Shown here: one piece after another, positions 19,249 to 37,451 of the stretch | How positions within the stretch are numbered: the first letter of the stretch is position 1 | Layout: each line of letters opens with the position of its first letter | Virus record (IMG/VR): IMGVR_UViG_3300025849_000055 | Coordinates: 1-49,588 of that record | Source: a virus | Length of the DNA stretch: 49,588 bases | Strand: one strand, 5' to 3' | The notes under the pieces: model-generated | Seen by the model: the letters and a program-made list of their open reading frames with translations, nothing else | What the model was told of the DNA's origin: nothing | Databases searched by the model: none | Translations under genes and position numbers: made by a program

Positions 19249-22200
19249 TTACTGCTCTTCCCACGTTACACCCAAGCTAATTTCGTCAGTGTTTGTACTT
19301 GCTGTGTCAGAATCAACAGCAAAGTATAAACTATCTGCAATATCTGTCAAAGGAAACGATAGATATTCTTTGTTATAGTCGAAGTATGGGCTCAAATCAA
19401 ATTGCTCAGTACCTGCTCTTAAATAAGTAGTCGCAACATTTACACCAGTACCTGCAATTGGTACAACACTATTTGATGCAATCTCGACTGAACTCAGCCC
19501 TTCTTTTTCTTCTGCACTTTTAGTTGCTGTAACATTATAAGCGATGTCTTTACCATCTGCTTGGAACTTCAAGTCTGGTAAGAATACTCCATTATTGAGC
19601 AGTTCTATCTGACCTTCAAACGATTGTAACAACTCGAAATAATACTGATCACCTTCTTTATATAGTCTACCGAAAACAGTCACCGCTTCAGATACTATTC
19701 GACCTCTAAACCAACCGAATATGTCTTCACCATTCTGTATGTATGGAGTAGCACTTTCAGTAACAGCGATAGGACTATTGCTATTATCAATAATGTATGC
19801 ACCATTCAACGTAAGCGTTCCAGAAGGAGTCACGCTAGTTTGGAAAGTAGGGGTCTTCTTAAAACGAAGTCTTACAGTGTTGCTACCAATGTTTGCAGTT
19901 GACAGCTTAGTTGGGTAAACCTGAACTCTATTACGAACTAAGTTACCTTCACGAGTTGACCTAATCGACTTCTTAGTCTCAACTCCATAAACAGTTTCCG
20001 ATCTATCTGGTAGTAAGAATACTCCATTTGTTGAGTTTAGTGGTGCTGACAAATGAACTCTATTATTAGCACTGTCAGCCCATACTACCTGAATATTCTG
20101 ATCTAATAGGCTATTGGTTTTAACTCTAGCGCCCATATAGAATACTGGATCAATAACTTTTACAGATTGGAAAGTTATAGCAGAGAAGCTACTTACTGCG
20201 TCAGTAGGCGATAAGCTAGTAAGAGTAAATGATGTCGCACTAGCCCCTGCGGCAACAACATAGTTTCCGCTAGTAATGTCACTTCCAGTATCAGTAATTT
20301 TTACAACATCTCCTGTTGTCACAGTAAAGCCAGAACCAGAGACAACTCCACCTGTTGAAACTCCTGTTACAGTACCTACAAACTCATCAATATATGTTTC
20401 ATTAACAACATAAGTTGGTGTAGTCGCAGACTCGCCGGGAACACTGTTAGCGGATTCCTCATATAGACCACCTACAGCAAATCTTTTACCTCTAGCAGAT
20501 ACTGTATCTTGGTTATTATGACTGTATAGTCGAACAGTACCTCTATCTCCACCATCGATGTAGTATGAAGCACCATACTTAACAATGTTGTGTGAGTTTG
20601 AGTTTCCATAGTCGCTCAAATATGTTTCACCATCACCAAGACTCTGCTCATCACCACCACCGTAAGTAGTGTAAGTAATAGGCAATGTTGCGTTACCAAG
20701 AGATGCAATCTTCAACTGATTCGATGCTCGCAGGTGATGTACTCGTACCCATCGTGCTTCACCATTGTCAACTGGAACATATGCCAAGAACAATGCACCA
20801 ACAGCACCATACCATGAGAACTCAATTTTAAGCATCGTTACTTTTGTGAAGTCGAACTTATATAAGCTATTTTGGTTGCTTTGTGTGCCTTCGGTGTTTG
20901 TGTAAATCTGACCGGGTCTAGCAGTACCGCCAGGACCAGTTGCTACATCACTATAAACACGCTTTCTAGAGCCTAATCTAGTAGAATCATTTTGAAGTGC
21001 TTCAGCAGTGCTTAACTTTCCATCAAGAACATCATGACTAAATCTTGAACGAGGTACACGATATTCGTAAACGCCCCAGTACTCTGGTTTAACATTATTC
21101 TTAATCCAGTTTACATATTCTGGATAGAAGTTTACATTATCGATCTGTGATCTAATCACATCAACATTGTTACTCAATTGTGGATTCAGTGCAGTGTTAA
21201 CGAATCCTATATACTCTTGATTCTCGTCTAAAGTAGTAGAAAGTAGATCGTCACCATAGGCATACATATATGGGAACACTCCACCAACAGGTGCGCTTGC
21301 AGATTGATCGCCTGGCGCATATTGCCTAAACTCTCTCTGTGTCGCTGGGTTACCTGCTGAGGGCTGGCCTGCACTACTTCTATCTGATGCATAGTTGGTA
21401 GTTGTTGCCGCTGTTGTCTGTATTTCTGATCTAAACGGAGGGGACGGAGTACCGTTAATTACACTCAAATCATAATCTTGAGGGAATATAAATGGTACAA
21501 CTGTGTCTATGTAGACGTTGCCCATAGCGGTGATGTTAGATGCATCCAGTGTCACTAAAAGTGGTTGTGTAGTGGTGGTTGGCATTGTTGTGCCATCAGC
21601 TTTAGTTAATGTAAACTCATTACCTTTAGGACCTATTACTCTTTTTACTCTTAGCACTTCTCCTTTGGATATAAGAACTTGAGTTGCTCCAGAACTACTT
21701 TGAATTTCTTGGGTCTCAGAAGCACCAGACCAACTAATTTTAACGTGCTGACCAAAGGTAACATTACCCTCGGTGAGTTTAAATATACTACCTACCTTAG
21801 TAATTTCACTTGAACTTTTAGTCCCAGCAGTAACTTGAGCAAGAACCTTTTTAGCATCTTTAAGTAGAGATGGATCATAAACGCCACCATGAACATGAAT
21901 AAGACCATCACGAAGAGTAATCAGATTACCCGGGAATGGGTTATTACCAATAGTCATGGTTTTAGTATCTTCATTGGAGAAGTTAGCAACAACTCTAGCG
22001 GCTAATGCAGCCTGCTTATTACGAAGAGTTAGTGACATACCAAATGCTTTCAAGTCTTCAAATAAAATGTCTTTAAGATGACTATGGCGGACAGGCTCAC
22101 TTAGAGTTGGTTTTGTGGCAGAATCAGCATCTAAGTCTTCTACTTGAGAATATACTGACATACCAGTTCCTCTAAGGAACATATTCATATTGTATGTAGT

Positions 22201-24042
22201 TTCTGCGTCTCCACCACCATCAATGTCGTTTTTATATCCATCAATTACATATCCAACGTCACGCTGACATTTATCCTTGATTACTTGCTGAAGAAGAGCG
22301 CCTCGGGTAGCATCAGCATCTACAAGTGATGCTAGTCCTGAAGTAGCATCATTTGATGATGTACCAAAACTCGCAGTTGAATATGTTATAATTTCCTGTA
22401 CTGTCGTCTCACCCGCTGAAAAAGCCACAGTAGGAGTCGAATTGGTACTGAATACTTTACCAACATAGACATCATTCACGCCCGCCATAGTATCATCTGT
22501 AGCGGGATTTAGTGCAGTGTGATCAGAAGTACGAGCAGTTTTTATAGAATACGTTCTATTAGCCTTCATTTCGCTTATACCCACAGACTTCTTCTTGACA
22601 GTCACATAGTAAGCCCAGAAGTTTCTTTTTACGTCATAGAAAGTTTTTGTTGCATCTTTTGCACCATAATCTATTGAAGTAGTTTGCGGTAAGAATGTAG
22701 TAGGGTTTGAGTTTGCAACGTCTTCTACAAATGCAGCCAGTACAACAGCTTGCAATGTACGAAGTCTAGCTTTTGCTGTCGCACTTAAAGTATCGAGTAT
22801 CTCTACAGCCGCATGAGAATCATCATAATTACCAGTAACTGTATCCTGAAACTGCTTTAACAGTCTTTCGTGTATAACTCTTTCAAATTTAGTAATGTTT
22901 GGGAATACGCCCACGCTTTGACCAACAGCCCAAGTACCTACAGTACCATCAGACAAACCAAAGTTTGTTGTGTTCCACTTAGTGTGTGCGTTACCACCAT
23001 ACTCCAAGTCTTGTAAAAACATATCGATCCAGTAGTCTAGATCACGTTTACATTTTGCTTCCATCTGGGCGGCAGTTAAACTTGCGCTCGCAGGATTACC
23101 TATAGATGTATTATATGCATCCGCTAAATCGCCATAGAATGTACTTTGACCAGTCATACTAGCGGAAAGAGTAGTACCGGCGTCAGTTCCTTTTGACACA
23201 TTAATTGAGCCGGTGTAGTTTGGAAGATCGCCTAAAATCTCATCAATAAGTTCGAATCTTTTTTCTGTTAATATCTTTCTGTCTGCTATAAGATCGCCTG
23301 AGGCACCACTAGCCTCGGCAGCACCTAACCCAACAATTCTATAGTCGTCTAATTGCGTGTTATCTATTGTATCCGCATCTGCAAATGGCGCATTGATATC
23401 AGCAGTGCCTAGATTATCTTCACCACGTTTTTTGGTAGTTCCTGCAATACCATATGGACTTACTGGTGAATACTGTAGAGATTGTGTTCTACGAACAACA
23501 GTAAAGTTATCTTCCTGACCATTGTTTCTAGTTTCCCAATAGTAACCATCGTACTTATCATAGATGCCGTATTTGCGAATAACTGGATTTCTTGAAAACG
23601 GAGTTTCGCCTACAGAACTCTTAATACCAAATGTAGCCGCAGATACACGACCAGGTTGATATCTAAAGAAACGCTTAGATGTCAATACAGAAACTTTATT
23701 ACGAGATGCTTCTACAAGCGCACCTGCTTCAGTAGGAAGATGCTTTACACCATCACCGATAATATGATATGCAGGCTTCATTGACCATTCTGTTGGGTTA
23801 ACATCGTAGGTGTTTACGTCAGCAAAGATACCCAAAGCAACCTCTGCTCTAGGAATACCTAGAAGCGATAGCGCAACTTCAGACTGTACTTTATTTTGCT
23901 CTTCTACTGGAATAGCAGTTTGATCAGAAGCCATTACTACTGGTATTGACTTCTCTGCAACTTGTGAGCCAGGAGAAACAGGAGTAGTTCTACCTACGTT
24001 AATTACTGCTGAGTTTGAGTTTACATTCGATATACTTGCCAT
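19249..24042 (-). CDS. Giant structural protein with an internally duplicated helical repeat
   Basis: A 1597-aa protein preceded by AGGAAAAGTAA. It shares with the downstream 1392-aa protein EKSIPVVMAS...SLLGIPRAEVALGIFADV (about 30-75), FFRYQPGRVSAATFGI (about 124-139), MLKIEFSWYGAVGALFLAYV (about 1066-1085) and VKYGASYYIDGGDRGTVRL (about 1152-1170). Here about 930 residues separate FRYQPGR from FSWYGA, against about 120 in the paralogue. The insert contains a two-fold repeat: KCKRDLDYWIDMFLQDLEYG (about 327) and KCQRDVGYVIDGYKNDIDGG (about 588), each followed by a Gly/Ala/Thr-rich stretch and helices. A copy of the second shared module lies at about nt 20165-20385. It is a probable late virion protein; its location in the particle is not determined. 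Confidence 0.75.
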   Translation of the reverse strand: MASISNVNSNSAVINVGRTTPVSPGSQVAEKSIPVVMASDQTAIPVEEQNKVQSEVALSLLGIPRAEVALGIFADVNTYDVNPTEWSMKPAYHIIGDGVKHLPTEAGALVEASRNKVSVLTSKRFFRYQPGRVSAATFGIKSSVGETPFSRNPVIRKYGIYDKYDGYYWETRNNGQEDNFTVVRRTQSLQYSPVSPYGIAGTTKKRGEDNLGTADINAPFADADTIDNTQLDDYRIVGLGAAEASGASGDLIADRKILTEKRFELIDEILGDLPNYTGSINVSKGTDAGTTLSASMTGQSTFYGDLADAYNTSIGNPASASLTAAQMEAKCKRDLDYWIDMFLQDLEYGGNAHTKWNTTNFGLSDGTVGTWAVGQSVGVFPNITKFERVIHERLLKQFQDTVTGNYDDSHAAVEILDTLSATAKARLRTLQAVVLAAFVEDVANSNPTTFLPQTTSIDYGAKDATKTFYDVKRNFWAYYVTVKKKSVGISEMKANRTYSIKTARTSDHTALNPATDDTMAGVNDVYVGKVFSTNSTPTVAFSAGETTVQEIITYSTASFGTSSNDATSGLASLVDADATRGALLQQVIKDKCQRDVGYVIDGYKNDIDGGGDAETTYNMNMFLRGTGMSVYSQVEDLDADSATKPTLSEPVRHSHLKDILFEDLKAFGMSLTLRNKQAALAARVVANFSNEDTKTMTIGNNPFPGNLITLRDGLIHVHGGVYDPSLLKDAKKVLAQVTAGTKSSSEITKVGSIFKLTEGNVTFGQHVKISWSGASETQEIQSSSGATQVLISKGEVLRVKRVIGPKGNEFTLTKADGTTMPTTTTQPLLVTLDASNITAMGNVYIDTVVPFIFPQDYDLSVINGTPSPPFRSEIQTTAATTTNYASDRSSAGQPSAGNPATQREFRQYAPGDQSASAPVGGVFPYMYAYGDDLLSTTLDENQEYIGFVNTALNPQLSNNVDVIRSQIDNVNFYPEYVNWIKNNVKPEYWGVYEYRVPRSRFSHDVLDGKLSTAEALQNDSTRLGSRKRVYSDVATGPGGTARPGQIYTNTEGTQSNQNSLYKFDFTKVTMLKIEFSWYGAVGALFLAYVPVDNGEARWVRVHHLRASNQLKIASLGNATLPITYTTYGGGDEQSLGDGETYLSDYGNSNSHNIVKYGASYYIDGGDRGTVRLYSHNNQDTVSARGKRFAVGGLYEESANSVPGESATTPTYVVNETYIDEFVGTVTGVSTGGVVSGSGFTVTTGDVVKITDTGSDITSGNYVVAAGASATSFTLTSLSPTDAVSSFSAITFQSVKVIDPVFYMGARVKTNSLLDQNIQVVWADSANNRVHLSAPLNSTNGVFLLPDRSETVYGVETKKSIRSTREGNLVRNRVQVYPTKLSTANIGSNTVRLRFKKTPTFQTSVTPSGTLTLNGAYIIDNSNSPIAVTESATPYIQNGEDIFGWFRGRIVSEAVTVFGRLYKEGDQYYFELLQSFEGQIELLNNGVFLPDLKFQADGKDIAYNVTATKSAEEKEGLSSVEIASNSVVPIAGTGVNVATTYLRAGTEQFDLSPYFDYNKEYLSFPLTDIADSLYFAVDSDTASTNTDEISLGVTWEEQ

Positions 24043-24051
24043 TTACTTTTC

Positions 24052-27000
24052 CTATTTAATCAGCCCTTGTGTCATCACAAAGTCGTCTATTATATTTATT
24101 GTTCCGTCAGCAGAGCCTGCGGCTTCGTTATTACCTGGGTCACTACTTACATATGTATTAGCACCAGAAGCAAAGAATCTTATTATTAAAGTTTTTGTTG
24201 CTCCCTCACCAGATATGTCTAGTACTATTCCGTAAGTATTTAGACTATTGCCTACACTGAACGAAGTCTTGTCTTTGATGATAACTTTTCGGCCTACAGT
24301 AAGATATGCAGGATTGCTAATATCAACAGTAAAGTCCTGATATGCCCTGCCTGCGTTCATTAGATCAACTTCAGTGCCACGAGCGACATTCTTACCAAAT
24401 TGTGGTGCGCCTGCTTCTTGATCTAGACCATTACTATCAAGTACTCGCCAATCTCCCCATGTGCCGACACTACTAATGCTACCGGCGTTAGCACCATATC
24501 TATAGCTTGCTGACCAAGCAACACCAACATGATATGAAGCAGGCGGATGTAGTTTACTAGCATCTGCTTCGCTTGCTCTTATCTGACTATCAAATATAGT
24601 TTGTAGTTCTCCTGCACTAAATCCACCTGTTAGGAGACGATCTAGTGATCCATGTCCTACATTGGTTATATTAAGTTTGAACTCGCCTCTAGTTTTATCT
24701 ATACCGGCATCCCCTGCTACATTTTCTATTTGAAGTCTGTCTTGGACAACAACTTTATGTAGAACTACTCCACCTGTCGTAATTTCTCCTGAAGTAGCTT
24801 CTCCTGCTCCCGCTATCGTAAATTCATTTCCGTTTGCATTTACATTAGTAACTTGATATGTGCCTGTGTTTATGCTTGTCGCACCGGCTGGGTTTGTCGC
24901 ACTTACTGTAACTTTGTCGTTGATAGTTACAGAAGTACCCGGTTGAGCGACTACACCACCAGTCGTGATTCCAGTAACTTCAGTTAGACTTTGTGTTCCT
25001 CTGTCTTGATAAGGAGTTGCATAGCCGGGACTAACTTTACCCGAAGTTGGTAAAGTTGTACTACCTTTCTGCTCTAATGTTGTACCGTTATAGACGAAAT
25101 CTGTTCCGACCATATTTACTATAGCGCCTGCCTTTGTCCAATCACAGTTACCAACATCTCGAATTTCATACGTCTCACCAGAAATCAATCCATAATTTGG
25201 TATGTTTGATGTCAAGTAAGAATTATTTCTTATATCTCTAGCACCAGGACCTACTTCGTCACCATATACTTCTTCTGTCGAACTTGAAGATGCGCCCAGC
25301 TTCCTGATCAAATTGGTATTATATGATATTGTTCCGCCTACAGCAGGATTAATTGTGTCCTGAGAGAGATCAAATACGCTACCATTTTCTTGATAAACAA
25401 ATGCATCGCTAGTATAAACGCCCGAAGGAAGACGAGACTGTAAATCCATAGCACTTCTAAGTATATTAACAGCATCATACTCAGAGTTAAATATATCTGG
25501 ACTACTCAAAAACTCATTAGATGGGCCCATCATCACGTTGGGGCTACTAATTAAGAAAGTTGATCCGTATGTGAATATTGCTGAACCAAGGTCAGTAGTT
25601 TCATCACCATCTTGAATATTACCAGTCAAGTTTTTAATGATGTTGTTTGCAATAACACCCTGCTTTGTAACAGAAGCATCGATAAAGTTAGTAAAGTTCT
25701 GAATAATATTTCCAGTAACAATAGTATTTTCGCCATCATCTATAGTTAGTGGTGAAAATTCATGTCTGTCGGATACTGCGCTATCTGATATCTCAGAAGT
25801 AACCAATTTAAATGCAGTTGGTGACGATGCGTTAATTCCCTCACCGACCAAATTCTTAATTCTACAGTTTTGGATTAGTATACCAGTTGATTGTGTACCA
25901 AAGTCGATAAAGGCATTACTATCATTAAGTAAGTATTGATTTCTATTGTTACCCTCAAAATCTATACCAATTAGAGATATTTGAGTAGGACCGAATTGAT
26001 CTTGCAGGAAAGTCCCTTTGATCACGCTATTATCTGCCGCACCACCATCAGTAGATCCTTCACTGACGTTGCTCCCAGTGTATCCACTGAATGGAATTTT
26101 TCTAATCTGAGTAATCCCTGGTACCCCAGTTAATCCAAAGAAAGACGGCACACTCAGATGTGAAACATTATATGTTTTTGCGTTTAGGTTAAGACTTCTT
26201 TGATCTGCTAGTGATTTAGAAGTAATTGCGTTCTGAAGTTTAGTAGTATCATTATGAACAATGTAGCACTTATTATTACTTATAACTGGATTACTTACTC
26301 CGTTGATAGAAACCTGATCTAATGCAGTACCAACAGTTAGCTGTATAACTCCACCCGCCTGTTTTGTAGGGTCTTCGAGTATTTCTACGTCACACCAACC
26401 ACAAAGTTTCGTTGAATTACTAGGGTCCGTAGGGTTGTCATTTGATCCCAAAGATTGTGGAAAGTGAATTACGTTTCTACCACCGACTAACTTTGATGGA
26501 ACCGCTTCTGGTAAATATGAATTATCAACTGGATCCTTACCTGACCAACTAACATAATCGAAATTATAATAGTCTCTCCAAGTATTTCCGTTAAAGTCTT
26601 TAGGTCCTAAAACAGCAACAAGATCATAATTACCAGTACCACCCTCTTGACGATATATAACTACGCCTTGATTGGAGACTAAACTTGCGATCTTGATACT
26701 AAGGAAATTGGAAGTATTGAAAGAGTTTCTTATCGTCTGTATGGTATCAGTCTCACCTGAAGCCGCAGAAGACAGCTTAATTATAGCCTGAGCAGTAGTT
26801 GTTCTCTTACCGATCTTACCTGTCTGTAAATCGAAGTACGCAATTTTATATCTAAGTTTTAGTGCAGGATTATCGGTAACCGTACCTTCTTCGAATATAC
26901 CATTAGCTACTTTAACTTCTTCAATAACAACCTCAGAGCTATTGTCATTGGCAGTCTTATTTCCACCAAAAACTCTTAAAATTTGACCTTTACTAAAAGA

Positions 27001-27666
27001 ATCTTGTATCTCCAAATTACTATCTGTTACTTGTAGCATAAAAGAAGTGTTTGGACTTCCGGTATTAGGAATCCATTGCGCTTCAATGTCTTGCAAGCTA
27101 TCTACAACATTACCACCATCAAATACATTACTATACTGATTAAATAGTCTACCAAAATTACTCTCGATAGCATTTGATACTTTAAGATCGCTATAGAAAA
27201 GTTTGTCTGTGCCCTCTGCAATATGATCAGTATTTACTACTGTTGCCTGGGCACCTGCGACAGAACTTTGTCTAACTTCAAGTGTTTTACGAGTAGCGCC
27301 CTGATTATTTCGTAATGAAACAAAGTTCTCAGTGTTTGCTAATAACGAGTTGTTAACAACTCTTGATGGTGCCCCAACAAGATTATCATAGTTTAAAAAA
27401 TACTCTGCGGTACGATATGCGCCATCGTAAAATAGCAACCCCGATTTAAGATTATTACTAGTGGTGTCGTCTGACCCACTAAGTGCAGACGTAAGATTCT
27501 GGATGATGTTAGCATCGGATAGAACAGTTGGGCTATAAACATAGTTCGATACATCACTAGCAGTTATCTTTCTACTACTGGTGTTTTGGTCATCAACAAT
27601 TGCAATTATATCAGCATCTGTGAGTGCATTTGCCGATAATAATTCTGTAAACTTTTTACTGCTCAT
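24052..27666 (-). CDS. Tail fibre/spike-type protein with a right-handed beta-helix
   Basis: A 1204-aa protein. The N-terminus (MSSKKFTELLSANALTDADI then IAIVDDQNTSSRKITASDV) is the FTELxxxxxLxDxDIxxxVD pattern common at the start of phage fibre proteins. Residues about 541-690 look like a pectate-lyase-type beta-helix, with short repeated turns such as GILIQNCRIKNLVGEGINAS, TIVTGNIIQNFTNFIDAS and GVIANNIIKNLTG. Such folds bind or cleave surface polysaccharides, but no catalytic residues can be assigned. Copies of the shared modules are at about nt 25078-25195 (TYEIRDVGNCDWTKAGAI) and 24745-24990. It is preceded by a 44-bp gap with an exact late-promoter box, so it may begin a transcription unit running to the 728-aa gene. 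The stop is TAG. Confidence 0.78.
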   Translation of the reverse strand: MSSKKFTELLSANALTDADIIAIVDDQNTSSRKITASDVSNYVYSPTVLSDANIIQNLTSALSGSDDTTSNNLKSGLLFYDGAYRTAEYFLNYDNLVGAPSRVVNNSLLANTENFVSLRNNQGATRKTLEVRQSSVAGAQATVVNTDHIAEGTDKLFYSDLKVSNAIESNFGRLFNQYSNVFDGGNVVDSLQDIEAQWIPNTGSPNTSFMLQVTDSNLEIQDSFSKGQILRVFGGNKTANDNSSEVVIEEVKVANGIFEEGTVTDNPALKLRYKIAYFDLQTGKIGKRTTTAQAIIKLSSAASGETDTIQTIRNSFNTSNFLSIKIASLVSNQGVVIYRQEGGTGNYDLVAVLGPKDFNGNTWRDYYNFDYVSWSGKDPVDNSYLPEAVPSKLVGGRNVIHFPQSLGSNDNPTDPSNSTKLCGWCDVEILEDPTKQAGGVIQLTVGTALDQVSINGVSNPVISNNKCYIVHNDTTKLQNAITSKSLADQRSLNLNAKTYNVSHLSVPSFFGLTGVPGITQIRKIPFSGYTGSNVSEGSTDGGAADNSVIKGTFLQDQFGPTQISLIGIDFEGNNRNQYLLNDSNAFIDFGTQSTGILIQNCRIKNLVGEGINASSPTAFKLVTSEISDSAVSDRHEFSPLTIDDGENTIVTGNIIQNFTNFIDASVTKQGVIANNIIKNLTGNIQDGDETTDLGSAIFTYGSTFLISSPNVMMGPSNEFLSSPDIFNSEYDAVNILRSAMDLQSRLPSGVYTSDAFVYQENGSVFDLSQDTINPAVGGTISYNTNLIRKLGASSSSTEEVYGDEVGPGARDIRNNSYLTSNIPNYGLISGETYEIRDVGNCDWTKAGAIVNMVGTDFVYNGTTLEQKGSTTLPTSGKVSPGYATPYQDRGTQSLTEVTGITTGGVVAQPGTSVTINDKVTVSATNPAGATSINTGTYQVTNVNANGNEFTIAGAGEATSGEITTGGVVLHKVVVQDRLQIENVAGDAGIDKTRGEFKLNITNVGHGSLDRLLTGGFSAGELQTIFDSQIRASEADASKLHPPASYHVGVAWSASYRYGANAGSISSVGTWGDWRVLDSNGLDQEAGAPQFGKNVARGTEVDLMNAGRAYQDFTVDISNPAYLTVGRKVIIKDKTSFSVGNSLNTYGIVLDISGEGATKTLIIRFFASGANTYVSSDPGNNEAAGSADGTINIIDDFVMTQGLIK

Positions 27667-27710: not shown

Positions 27711-29366
27711 TTAGGGAACTCTCTTCCACATATATGTCGTAATAAATGGCATACAACTATTATGTGGTTTTCCGACTTCCACTTCTGTAACACCATTCGA
27801 ATCTTCGTATCCATATACACCACCGCTATATGCGTATAGGTGGGCGTCATAATTTTGATTAGGTCCTTGGGCTCTTTTAGTACCCTGCAATGAAGTTGGG
27901 TTATTAGCATCATTATACAAGTAGAACTGCTCACCATGCCATGCTCTATTATCATGAACATGGTCTGGAACTTGTTCAGTTGTTAGAGTGTGAGAAACTG
28001 CGCCACCTATATGACCCTCTGTACCGAATCCTTTATGAACAACAGTCGAACTACTTGGAATAGTAAAGTTTCTATTTAGTCCGCCTGCCGGTATCGGGTT
28101 ACCACTTAGTGCAACTACAATAGTCGCTCCTGCTACAGATTTTACTGTAGCATTATGACCCTGTGAAATAATAATTCCATGCTGTGAAATATTCACGCCA
28201 GAGTTCATATTAACTTCTATCGCTTCCGTTGGTTTAATACCATGCGAAGAGTCTTGTAGTACTATGCTATAATCTTGGGTTGCATTTATATAAGTTATAG
28301 AAACAATTCCTTTACCAGTATCCCATCCAAGTAAAGTTTTACCCTGACCATAGCGTTCCCAGTTAGAGGCTCCCCAAGGCAAGATTACACTTGGGTCTCT
28401 ACTATCTGTGGTAATATATAATGCTCCTACTGGATAAATAGTCTCTAATAGTGTGACGATTCCAGGAGTAGTCAAGCTCGTGGCTTGACCATTAAATGTT
28501 GGTGGGTTAGTAGCAGTATCGACTACTTTATCATTACCATCTTGAGTATATACGTCACCAAAACCTAGAGTTCCATTTAATCCACTAACACCAGAAGTTG
28601 TAGAAATACTAGTGAAGTTACCACTTCTTGGTATGTTAGTACCAATAGCAGTGTTGTCAATAGCACCAGTCAATGCATTAATAGCACTAGGGGATAAGCT
28701 ATCTGAAGGGTCTGGATCGATATCAATTCTAGTACCCTTGATTGTCGATGGAGTATTAGTACCAATAGCAACATTGTCAAGAATACCATTTCCACCAGTT
28801 CCAGTACACTCTAGTTTGGTAAATTTACCTAAACCTGCTGTGGTCTGTCCAATGTTAATACCATTAAGAGCATCTGCTATCATATCAGAAGATACTTTTG
28901 CCCCATTACTTGAAGATATAACACCAGTTGTCTTATGTATTTTAAATGATTTAGTCGATGAACCAATCTCTAGTTCTGTATGAAGAGCATTCGTTTTAAC
29001 AAAAAGTGTATCTGTAAACCCGCCGGGCACTCCAGTACTAAACTGAAGAGTAGCTTCTGTCGTTACATTCGAACTATCATCAGAGCCAGTTATCTGTAGC
29101 TTAGAGTCTTCTCCTGTAATGATAACATTATTTTTATCTAAAAGTAGATAGTTAGCGTTGTCTGTAGACGAAATTATATCAGTCTTAATTTTTCTAGAGT
29201 TTGCTAGAGTTAAGTTGCCATTGAGAACAATGTTCCCAGTATTGGTTTCATTATCCCCTAGCGTGACACTTATTTTTGCCACTCCCAGTATGTCGTTCGT
29301 CAAATCTTTCCAGTTTCCAAATGTAGAAAGATTCGATACGGTTGTTAAGTCAGCCTTTGCAGTCAT
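27711..29366 (-). CDS. Short-tail-fibre-like protein with phage tail collar domain
   Basis: A 551-aa protein. Residues about 305-350 are a phage tail collar domain (TIYPVGALYITTDSRDPSVI, then WGASNWERYGQGKTLLGW), the fold seen at the tips of T4 gp12-type fibres. After an inserted segment (about 354-440) comes GGAVSHTLTTEQVPDHVHDN (455-473), a His-rich motif typical of these receptor-binding tips. The ending MPFITTYMWKRVP is the usual collar-protein terminus. The N-terminal half is beta-rich fibre shaft and contains a two-fold repeat of the form DN(V/T)AIGTN(T/I)P (about residues 196-206 and 237-247). It occupies the T4 gp12 position. Its ATG overlaps the stop of the 62-aa gene (ATGA). The role is probably host adhesion. 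Confidence 0.85.
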   Translation of the reverse strand: MTAKADLTTVSNLSTFGNWKDLTNDILGVAKISVTLGDNETNTGNIVLNGNLTLANSRKIKTDIISSTDNANYLLLDKNNVIITGEDSKLQITGSDDSSNVTTEATLQFSTGVPGGFTDTLFVKTNALHTELEIGSSTKSFKIHKTTGVISSSNGAKVSSDMIADALNGINIGQTTAGLGKFTKLECTGTGGNGILDNVAIGTNTPSTIKGTRIDIDPDPSDSLSPSAINALTGAIDNTAIGTNIPRSGNFTSISTTSGVSGLNGTLGFGDVYTQDGNDKVVDTATNPPTFNGQATSLTTPGIVTLLETIYPVGALYITTDSRDPSVILPWGASNWERYGQGKTLLGWDTGKGIVSITYINATQDYSIVLQDSSHGIKPTEAIEVNMNSGVNISQHGIIISQGHNATVKSVAGATIVVALSGNPIPAGGLNRNFTIPSSSTVVHKGFGTEGHIGGAVSHTLTTEQVPDHVHDNRAWHGEQFYLYNDANNPTSLQGTKRAQGPNQNYDAHLYAYSGGVYGYEDSNGVTEVEVGKPHNSCMPFITTYMWKRVP

Positions 29367-29551: not shown

Positions 29552-32500
29552 TAGTTTACTGCCACAGCTTTATAGCTAGATATGTGTGGGAATAAACTTG
29601 GAGTAAGTACAACACCATCAAGCTCAGAAGACCCCGCCAGTTCTACGGCAGTATTGTGTCTCATCGCTATTTTCATCTGGAATGCGACATAAGGAGTTGC
29701 ACTCGTAGGTTCGGTGTAGTTATATTCAAATTCACGATAGTCTTCTTGATCATTCAATGCCGAGTATGTTTTAGGATTTTTAATAGTAAGTAAAATCCAG
29801 TCAGGTTTTTCGTCTACATTTTCCTCTAAAATAAAGCGAGTGTAAACATCAATGACTGTACCGGGCGGTCTATATGCCTCAAGTAATACTTTCAACCCCT
29901 CGGCAGGCATTTCTGGATTTAACATAACTTCTTTAGAAATATAATTAGCCGAACCACCTGCGCCAGCAACATCATTTATCTGATACTCATAAACATTTAT
30001 ATTACTCAAATCATCATCAAGAGTTGGAGTTACTGATTTAAACCCACCGTTACTCATAGAAACTCTAAGTCTAAAGTCTTCTTTAATGCTAGTTACACCG
30101 GCACCTAGACTGTCGATCTGTTTACTCTTACTAATGATAACTCTTGGTTTATTTGTGCAGTACACATCTGAGTTTTCGTCAATAGGCTTATCTAGTTGAT
30201 ATACACCACCAACTTCTTCAAGCAGATTAACGCTAGTAGACGTTTTAGTTGTATTATCTAATGATACTTTTGGCTCGAAGTAAGATATTCCTTGACTATT
30301 ACAACTAGTGATAGTTGCTTGAGCGCCTGATGCCGCACCAATAATTCTTTGGTCATTTGGTCGTGCTTGACCATTTGCTCCTGGGTATTGTGTTGACGTT
30401 GCAACAGCGCAAACAAAGGTAGTTCCAACTGTAGGCACTAATGCATTATCACCAGATACGTCTCGCCAAGAGTTTTGAATATCTCCTGCACCACCACTGC
30501 CTAAGTTTGTTATGGTATATGTATTACCTACTATTAGCGGCACCGATGTTGAGTGAATTTGGTGGACTGCGCTATCATCAAAATAGTTACCAATTCTTGC
30601 AGAACTCTCAGTCAAGTGTAGTGTGTCTGGTCTTTCTGAATCATAATACTCAACTTTACCCGCTTTGAGTAAAGTCACAACAACACCAGTAGCACCATTA
30701 ACCTCATAGAAAGGCGTATCCAAATCAATATATGAGTTGGTATCAGTACCACCAGGCGTAGTAATATTTTCTACTTGAGCGACAATCATGTCAGGAGCTA
30801 GTCCTGCATCAATATCAGCCTGTGGTTGTTGAGTCTCTTCCACCATGAGATAGTCGCCTACAGCTATACCGACTGTTAAGCCGCTTAGTGTAGTGCTATC
30901 TATCTTAATTATCTCTGGAGTTTCATTGTCGTCATCTGGATTATCACCCATAGTACCACCACTAAATGTAGTACTTGTTACCACATAAGCAGTTTCGTCA
31001 TCTACGAAGTCTATAGCTTTAGCACTACCTGTAACTTTTTTACTGTCTCTTATAGTTAAGAACTCAACATCGTTGGGTACTAAATCACAAGTACCAACAG
31101 AATCACTAACAAAGCTATATCTATTAACAGTAAACTTCAAGTCTTCGTCTGTATAAGATTTCCAAGCACTGTCATTTGTAGGAGCAAATAGCACACCATC
31201 ACCCCAGTCATTATTGTAACCGCTTGCTTGAGCAGTAGTTCCTTTAGAGAAGCTACGTTTACCAACTGAAGCTGTATACAGTAAGTATTCTGGAGACCCA
31301 CCGTCAGGTATTACCGTAAAGCAATAGTCGGTGTCTGCTTTAAGTTTAACTGGATTTTCAAATTCAAATTTTGTAGCGACAGTACCATCATTAGAGATGT
31401 TTACGTCTGACTCATCTAAATATGCCTCTGCAAAAGGTAATACTTTTGTCGTTGGATATCCTAATTCTATCTCTCGTATCTGTACTGTTACACCTTGGTT
31501 TGTAGCCTTTCTCTTAAAGAATAAGTCGATATCACTAACATAACCATAGTTCGCCAGACCGGTATCTGATGCTCTCATCTTGAATGTTTGAGCAATAGGA
31601 TCCTGTCTATCTTTATCGAACTCTCTTTTTACTGAACTTGTCTCTGCTTCATTGTCTACATCTCTAGTGCTAGTATTTTGACTTTTACTTAGTCTATGAT
31701 GATATGAAGTCTGCGTTGCAGAAGCATAAGAAGTCCCCTGAGACTTAATATTACTGTAAGTCGAAACATCAGATATTTCTAGTCGATTTTGACCAGTAGT
31801 GTAGACTCCTCTAGGAACTAGGAAATATGCAAACAAGTTACCTCTAGAATCTGTCTTAACAGTCGAAGTCGTATAGTTATATCTCGTTGTAGTTCTACCT
31901 CTTCTTCTACCGTAAAAGAAATCAGCCCAGTTACGATATGGCAAATACTTAGGAGAAATGAATCTAAATCTTCTTCCGCTTCTACCACGATGTCTTCTTC
32001 TAGCACGGCGATAGAATCTTAACCAGTCATATCTAAACTGTCTGACATGAGTGTCTACATTTTTACCACCAAAGAAGAAGTGATGCTCTGTGTTAGGTCT
32101 TAGTCCGTTAACAGAAATTCTAATAACTTGAGGTCTCATATATGATCTAAATGCATGATGATGATATGCAGAATAGAGACTAGCAGTTCTTGGATAATTA
32201 GAGAGATGACCTGACCTGTACAAGTAGTTCAATCTCTTCGCATATGAATATGCGTGCCTACGAATACGGCGTCTGTATCTTGATCTTCGGCTTAATCTAA
32301 TATATCTCTGAAGTCTTGTCACACGATATATAATATGAGCTGGCAGTGCTGTATGAATCAACAAAGGATTGGTTATAACATCACGATGGAAAGTATACTT
32401 TGGATAAATATTCGCCTTTCCTTTAAAGCTATAACTATTCACTACACAGTTTCTAACGCCAGTTGCATATGGTTGACTTATGATGGGAGTTTTAGTCTCA

Positions 32501-35459: not shown

Positions 35460-37451
35460 TTAAAAATCAAACGTGAACTTTATATTTTCGTTTTTACTAG
35501 ACTCTCTTGTAATAGGAGAAAAGTCAATGAAGTGCAATAGGTCACCCGAATATGCATCATACTGACCATACGAAATACTGTTAGTTATTTTACTATTTAT
35601 ACTGACTGGTGCTGTTGGGGTTTCTTTAATATAAAAAACACCTTTCTGAAACTTATGTTGGAAATCTCCATAGTAGTCTACAAGACTGATATATGTATTG
35701 GTAGTATCAGAACTAATTTCATGTATTTTACCCTTAACGATATCCAGACCATAATCATAATCTGTATTAGTGACATCCACCCTATCTACAACAAATGATA
35801 CTGTAGCATTTTTCTCAGACCCGATACTTGCAGTGTTTGTACTTGTGAATACATCACCTACTGAAGGAGACTCACCAGTAGCACCAATCGCTGTAAAGTC
35901 ATTGGTGCCCATTGTGCCGGCAACTCCTGTTCCTAAACTACAGATAGTGTAAGACACTCCGTCTACCATATTCTGAACGCTTATAGTTTTAATATACTGT
36001 TCAACATATGAATTGACTCCACCACCACCACGCAAAAGTGTGTGTATTGTGTCTAGGCTTTCATTTGCAGAATCACCAGAAGGATCAATGTGGTCACTTT
36101 CTGGTGTGCTAGAGTTAGGTACAGTCAAAACTGTTCTATTATCAAATGCAGTCGGAGTAACGGAAGCACCAGAAGAATCTGTAAATGTTGGATTTTTTAA
36201 TAGACCAATAATCGAATATTCGTTAAAGCTAGGAGTAGTTGCACTTCCACCAACAAATCCAATCGCCATAGATAACTTACTCATCGCAATTTCGGAAATA
36301 GGATCTTTACCATGACCACCTCTAGGAGAGACAATAGCACGAAGTATTGTTGGGTTTGACTGTACAGATGCAGAGGGTTTGAGAAGTGGTGGATACACCA
36401 CCTCGGCCTGAGCAAACTTATAATTAGAACCTCTAGTTTCAAACCCAACACTTTTCGCTGTACCAAATTCGTCTAGAATTAAATATGCCTTTGCTCTTGT
36501 GCCAGTTAAGGTACTAGAAGATATATTAACTTTAATCAATAACTGACAAACTTGTTGCGTAGAAAATATGTCTCTAGTTCTTACTCGTAATCTTATTTGG
36601 TTAGTATTGGCATCAGATGTGGTCGCCTCGACATCGTAAAGTTTACCTGTAGCACCATGTCTAAGATACATATTCTTATATGCATCTGCTGAAGAATAAA
36701 GAGTTCTATTAGTCTTGGTTGTTGCTGTGACTACTATATTTTTAAAATCTCCTACAGTAGTACTATCACCATCAATAATAATAACATCAGAAGTATTGTT
36801 AGCACTAGTTGCTTCACCAAATAGATATTGGTTAAACTGATTAGGTACAGTATCCTCTATGATGATATTAGAAATATCTTCTTTCGCACTTGCTCTAACT
36901 AAAGGATCGCCATAAGCATTATCTACGCCTGAAATTACTGGTAGAGGTAAGTCTCCACTAGATTTAAAATCCCGAACCTCAGATGCTAAAACCTTAAACA
37001 TAAACTGCCATCTATACCCGTCTTGAGTAATAGACATTTGATAGTTATTTTGATCGACTGTACCAGTTATTTCTTGAGATGGTGAATTATTGTTATTATC
37101 GAGACATTTAAAAATTAAGTAGTTACCGCTACCCTGTTCTCTGACAGAAACAACCATGTTTAGAGATTCAATATCTTTCGTGTCATCATATTGATCATAG
37201 ATAGTCCCCTTGACCCAAGGGTTTTCTATAAACATATATCTCGCATTGTTAGTACTTAACTTTTTACCAAATATGATCTTACGCAGAAAATCTCTTTTAG
37301 ATGTCTGCGTATTTTGTATTTTAGCACCAACCTGAAATTCTGATTTGGTCTTTGATCCAGAAGCAACTACATAATAGCTTTGGTCGTCCAAACTATTAAA
37401 CAATTCGTTCGTTGTCTCGATTTTAAAATTTTCTGTTATAATCTTTGCCAT
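35460..37451 (-). CDS. 8: Baseplate wedge protein gp8
   Basis: Homologue of T4 gp8, a dimeric wedge component that binds gp7 and gp10. T4-like elements are MFIENPWVKGTIYDQYDD near residue 72, NMVVSVREQGSGNYLIFKCL (compare T4 YRCLDVPD), QDGYRWQFMFKVLASEVRDF (compare T4 GDGYVWEYLFEIPPDV), and a C-terminus (SSKNENIKFTFDF) resembling T4 TEEINILFTF. At 663 aa it is about twice the length of T4 gp8 (334 aa). Part of the excess is a copy of the shared module at about nt 35830-35975 (SYTICSLGTGVAGTMGTNDF, then SPSVGDVFTSTN). It lies in T4 order, after gp7 with one gene (YHYH) between. A TATAAATA lies inside the gene at 35594-35601 but may be chance. Confidence 0.88.
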   Translation of the reverse strand: MAKIITENFKIETTNELFNSLDDQSYYVVASGSKTKSEFQVGAKIQNTQTSKRDFLRKIIFGKKLSTNNARYMFIENPWVKGTIYDQYDDTKDIESLNMVVSVREQGSGNYLIFKCLDNNNNSPSQEITGTVDQNNYQMSITQDGYRWQFMFKVLASEVRDFKSSGDLPLPVISGVDNAYGDPLVRASAKEDISNIIIEDTVPNQFNQYLFGEATSANNTSDVIIIDGDSTTVGDFKNIVVTATTKTNRTLYSSADAYKNMYLRHGATGKLYDVEATTSDANTNQIRLRVRTRDIFSTQQVCQLLIKVNISSSTLTGTRAKAYLILDEFGTAKSVGFETRGSNYKFAQAEVVYPPLLKPSASVQSNPTILRAIVSPRGGHGKDPISEIAMSKLSMAIGFVGGSATTPSFNEYSIIGLLKNPTFTDSSGASVTPTAFDNRTVLTVPNSSTPESDHIDPSGDSANESLDTIHTLLRGGGGVNSYVEQYIKTISVQNMVDGVSYTICSLGTGVAGTMGTNDFTAIGATGESPSVGDVFTSTNTASIGSEKNATVSFVVDRVDVTNTDYDYGLDIVKGKIHEISSDTTNTYISLVDYYGDFQHKFQKGVFYIKETPTAPVSINSKITNSISYGQYDAYSGDLLHFIDFSPITRESSKNENIKFTFDF

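Follow-up and report, generated by a model that had tools for sequence, protein, structure and literature searches.

Proteins of the DUF4815/VrlC family are common in marine and other myophages, where they are regarded as integral to the double-layered baseplate. In the VrlC proteins of Bacillus phages, a lectin-like/CBM fold match (AF2/Dali) has been reported in the region equivalent to residues 1281–1450 of the protein described here (PMC11406892). The stretch of viral DNA under study (49,588 nucleotides, IMG/VR record IMGVR_UViG_3300025849_000055, referred to as the window) encodes such a protein of 1963 residues in a frame without interruption throughout (Table 1). Its match to PF16075 amounts to 145.5 bits in three stretches (Pfam, curated cut-off 30), bearing out the family assignment of an earlier sequence-only reading, and phrog_358 is matched with 785 bits (PHROG). 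A profile of 42 relatives matched 9euf, the solved phi812 baseplate protein, over residues 745–1460 (E 1.8e-41), and Foldseek comparison of the protein model with 9euf_0 gave an E of 2.0e-18 at a probability of 1.00. The low TM-score against 9euf is attributed to poor domain placement in the AlphaFold2 (AF2) model (pTM 0.41). By homology, the product is assigned to a known family; it is the DUF4815/VrlC baseplate protein of a T4-like bacteriophage.

The genes are arranged in the order gp25, gp6, a large protein, a protein that we take to be YHYH-like from our own reading of its family, a gp8-like protein, VrlC, and a Gp10_C-domain protein. The position in the baseplate operon adjoining gp8 is the same in Sinorhizobium phage phiM7 (gp25, gp6, gp8-like, then VrlC). 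Two side observations concern the baseplate and fibre genes. A module of about 50 residues starting with G-[ST]Y-I---G occurs in three different baseplate/fibre proteins of the window, at 30352–30531 (residues 1638–1697 of the DUF4815 protein), around residue 498 of ORF 35460–37451 and around residue 830 of ORF 24052–27666, as well as in the VrlC proteins of some relatives; it is possibly a shuffled domain. Moreover, the N-terminal 143 residues of ORF 19249–24042 are 91% identical to those of the related contig L011, with about 50–68% for neighbouring genes, which suggests a recent exchange of the fibre attachment end.

Table 1 Features of the VrlC locus, with positions in the window and residue numbers of the 1963-residue protein
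Feature	Residues	Position	Strand	Basis
DUF4815/VrlC-like baseplate protein	1963 aa	29551..35442	(-)	Pfam PF16075, phrog_358, homology to phi812 9euf
Charge-inverted segment, net +4 here	1022–1047	32302..32379	(-)	Acidic in 39 relatives; AF2 helix 1033–1047
Block 1, Arg/Tyr-rich low-confidence linker	1048–1093	32164..32301	(-)	Composition, alignment, pLDDT below 50
Predicted beta-sandwich domain (GLRPNT...FFFGG ... TDSRGNLFAYFLVP)	1095–1252	31687..32160	(-)	pLDDT about 85–95 outside the loop
Block 2, expanded Arg/Tyr/Trp-rich loop	1128–1194	31861..32061	(-)	Only in window, L011, L091–L093; low pLDDT
DPIAQTF domain	1281–1450	31093..31602	(-)	Alignment to 9euf 790–953; PMC11406892
gp8-like baseplate wedge protein, neighbour		35460..37451	(-)	phrog_438; no compensating charge change (charge-switch scan)
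Gp10_C-domain protein, downstream, possible partner		27711..29366	(-)	Domain match and comparison with relatives

Two strongly positive blocks in residues 1021–1200 were confirmed as a real feature of this protein. The first holds RLSRRSRYRRRIRR from residue 1049, the second YRRARRRHRGRSGRRFRF from residue 1144 and YGRRRGRTTTRYNY from residue 1177; in the 37-mer RVTRLQ...YLYR of block 1, 14 residues are Arg, precisely as first counted. Net charge amounts to +14 for residues 1021–1080 and +18 for residues 1141–1200, in a protein of −60 overall. The strongest 50-residue span of the protein reaches +17, about six standard deviations above the spans of all other ORFs in the window (1343 spans of 50 residues, sampled every 10 residues; mean −1.8, SD 3.1, maximum +9). 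The initial argument against a frameshift also holds. The ORF is open, the GC3 of the blocks (0.27) and their preference for AGA are the same as in the rest of the gene, and for the block 1 region only the annotated frame matches the homologue profile (45 bits, none for the other frames), which excludes compensating indels across block 1. The gene-like GC3 and Arg codon preference further rule out a patch of foreign DNA, and a repeat-driven expansion is ruled out by the lack of meaningful direct or inverted repeats in 31600–32500. Block 2 is also present in L011 and in L091–L093, contigs from other samples, and codons differ at 11–15 of 43–48 shared residues between the block-2 contigs, so that an artefact is already refuted for this block. 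No support was found for the notion that compensating frameshifts or an assembly error made the basic blocks, and its probability is considered negligible.

An AF2 run with the 42 relatives yielded a confidently predicted beta-sandwich domain with a helix at residues 1033–1047 ahead of it, and pLDDT values below 50 for the linker 1047–1093 (block 1) and the loop 1139–1191 (within block 2). A second model, in which the domain was folded alone, agrees with the first and hints at short helices within the loop. When the domain by itself was searched with Foldseek, no significant match was returned. The conserved core, described beforehand as flanked and split by the blocks, corresponds in these models to two halves of one domain, from which block 2 would project and which block 1 would precede.

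Both blocks had been read as insertions. Alignment upholds this for block 2, which by comparison with relatives is a true insertion in the form of an expanded loop inside the predicted domain. It rules out block 1 as an insertion, and likewise both blocks as a single one, as the linker at block 1 is of ordinary length (73 residues here vs. 67–91 in relatives). Its net charge is +16 in the window phage, +8 and +14 in two sister lineages, and −12 to +2 elsewhere, and its identity within the clade is 0.05–0.17. Judged from the alignment, block 1 is a hypervariable linker of unconstrained sequence; according to the models it is probably disordered. At the same site, 41 distinct linkers of cyanophage VrlC proteins hold on average 13 Arg at a mean net charge of +7.8, ranging from −5 to +23. 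Such variation, together with the low clade identity and low pLDDT, fits tolerated drift, in which a flexible linker and loop turned Arg-rich by low-complexity change and serve no specific role. Drift is adequate for block 1 alone. As an account of the whole feature it is improbable, given that block 2 is conserved and that the acidic segment and domain positions were inverted in a coordinated way (see below). Another cationic tract was observed in the VrlC homologues L022 and L063, where unbroken Lys runs (K8–K10) lie just downstream of the beta-sandwich domain.

In the homologue alignment, block 2 is confined to three lineages, the window phage and its sisters L011 and L091. Their loops comprise 68–69 residues with 18–19 Arg, a net charge of +17 to +19, and the conserved pattern RQFRY.W.R.Y...YLP.RNWAD...GRRRGR. 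The loops of 39 other relatives at this site comprise 28–55 residues with 0–9 Arg and a net charge of −5 to +9. Outside the clade, the loops of L102, L112, L123 and L125 are of intermediate basicity (net +7 to +9), so that loop charge varies by degree. Targeted scans of viral contigs retrieved the arm from the same phages and from no further lineages, and it was absent from the bacterial and archaeal genome contigs scanned. In a tree made without the loop and linker columns, the three lineages form one clade (support 100/100); a single change is needed, and this tree places the gain of the loop in their common ancestor. Within the clade, loop identity is 0.52–0.67 at a core identity of 58–61% (loop/core ratio 0.85–1.16), compared to a mean loop identity of 0.23 and a median ratio of 0.32 for 316 other pairs at 48–68% core identity, where it should be noted that the pairs are not independent and that only three lineages bear the trait. 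Because of the codon differences among the shared residues given above, protein-level constraint is the likely cause of the loop identity. In the clade, conservation of the loop equals that of the structural core.

The sequence-only reading overlooked a shift towards positive charge, in the same lineages, of the adjoining acidic segment and of further sites in the domain. Segment 1022–1047 has a net charge of −2 to −8 in 39/39 relatives, and of +4, +3 and +2 in the three lineages only; its identity is 0.27–0.46 in the clade vs. a mean of 0.65 elsewhere. Scanning for clade-specific charge switches revealed 12 in residues 1020–1280, all to positive and some of them outside the loop, vs. 25 in the rest of the protein (9 positive, 16 negative). 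The bias corresponds to a Fisher p of 0.0002 for a region that was picked after inspection of the data. By these sequence comparisons, the domain carrying the loop shifted positive in a coordinated way in all three lineages. Since only these three independent lineages carry the trait, the changes may be correlated through a single event in their ancestor.

The best explanation, to which we assign close to but below even chances, is that this known baseplate protein bears a cationic docking face peculiar to the clade, i.e. a defined baseplate site with an anionic partner. In the common ancestor of the three lineages, the domain loop grew by about 15–40 residues into an Arg/Tyr/Trp-rich arm and the acidic segment beside it lost its acidity and turned basic, so that it is now the loop, and no longer this segment, that is under constraint. 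The domain, which would formerly have made its contact through the acidic segment, may have been rewired to use a cationic face, the loop of which may order upon binding a negatively charged partner. In the window phage, block 1 would add positive charge to the same face, its sequence being unconstrained. A defined docking site is judged likelier than a non-specific sticky brush because the conservation of RQFRY, YLP.RNWAD and GRRRGR is as strict as that of the core. Tentatively, as a possibility rather than a probability, we propose a switch of interface from the acidic segment to the Arg-rich arm, with a shift of constraint, by which phages of the clade would dock to another anionic partner, either a protein or a host polyanion. 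Candidates are probably an acidic baseplate protein or a host-envelope polyanion, encountered at the tail tip or host surface. The Gp10_C-domain protein shows 57–67% identity among the three lineages vs. 26–33%, often partial, in most outside relatives. Conversely, the docking proposal lacks an acidic counterpart: the charge-switch scan found no compensation in gp8, with one switch, towards acid, and the ORFs nearby show no excess of acidity in the three lineages over relatives outside.

A cationic domain could also meet phosphate or carboxylate groups of host LPS or capsule at landing, thereby stabilising irreversible attachment. Such an envelope-binding face is consistent with the whole domain, not one patch, having turned positive without a change in gp8, with Arg-rich linkers recurring at the equivalent position of VrlC in cyanophages, and with the lectin/CBM-like folds (AF2/Dali) just downstream in VrlC of Bacillus phages (PMC11406892). 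Still, it is rated less likely than a defined baseplate contact: the loop equals the structural core in conservation, which typical host-contact loops do not, and no LPS-binding family was matched. Binding of nucleic acid by the Arg-rich blocks in assembly or ejection is very improbable. Their composition is like that of Arg-rich motifs, and the best PDB sequence matches, to a basic loop of coronavirus nucleoproteins, are attributed to chance or composition at an E of 0.14 or worse and are not believed to reflect a likeness. Neither Pfam, PDB sequence nor Foldseek searches returned a significant nucleic-acid-binding match, and DUF4815 is a tail baseplate protein that is not known to contact the genome. 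In Pfam and PHROG, blocks 1 and 2 matched no known LPS- or nucleic-acid-binding domain, and in PDB none with significance. Among LPS, nucleic acid and an acidic baseplate protein, nucleic acid has the least support, with no positive evidence.

In summary, the block-2 arm and the inverted segment are what is new, the protein family itself being known already. A charge-flipped domain with moved constraint offers a testable handle on the contact made by the VrlC middle domain in a widespread baseplate protein. Furthermore, the comparison brings out the block-1 linker site as hypervariable and repeatedly Arg-rich across distant families, block 1 being one case by sequence. The window protein shares family, size class and place after gp25-gp6-gp8 with VrlC/DUF4815 (PF16075) of T4-like cyanophages, pelagimyophages and phiM7/phiM12, and is 30% identical to phiM7 VrlC at 85% coverage. 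Unlike in the window phage, the block-2 arm was not found in VrlC of the cultured phages in the collection (tblastn matches were weak, E 0.5 or worse). The DUF4815 protein of Staphylococcus phage phi812 (PDB 9EUF, 1152 residues) is homologous to residues 745–1460 of the window protein, including the beta-sandwich domain, but its loop is short (about 20 residues) and not Arg-rich, unlike block 2. The VrlC gene of cyanophage S-SKS1 (HQ633071.1, about 118976–126336; L290) apparently lies in an unannotated stretch. As in the window phage, a linker rich in Arg and in Thr/Ser occupies the site of block 1 in VrlC proteins of the S-SKS1 family (L035, L211–L289). They are distant (about 20% identity) and their linker sequence differs from that of the window, and we infer that the Arg-rich linker arose independently in this family.
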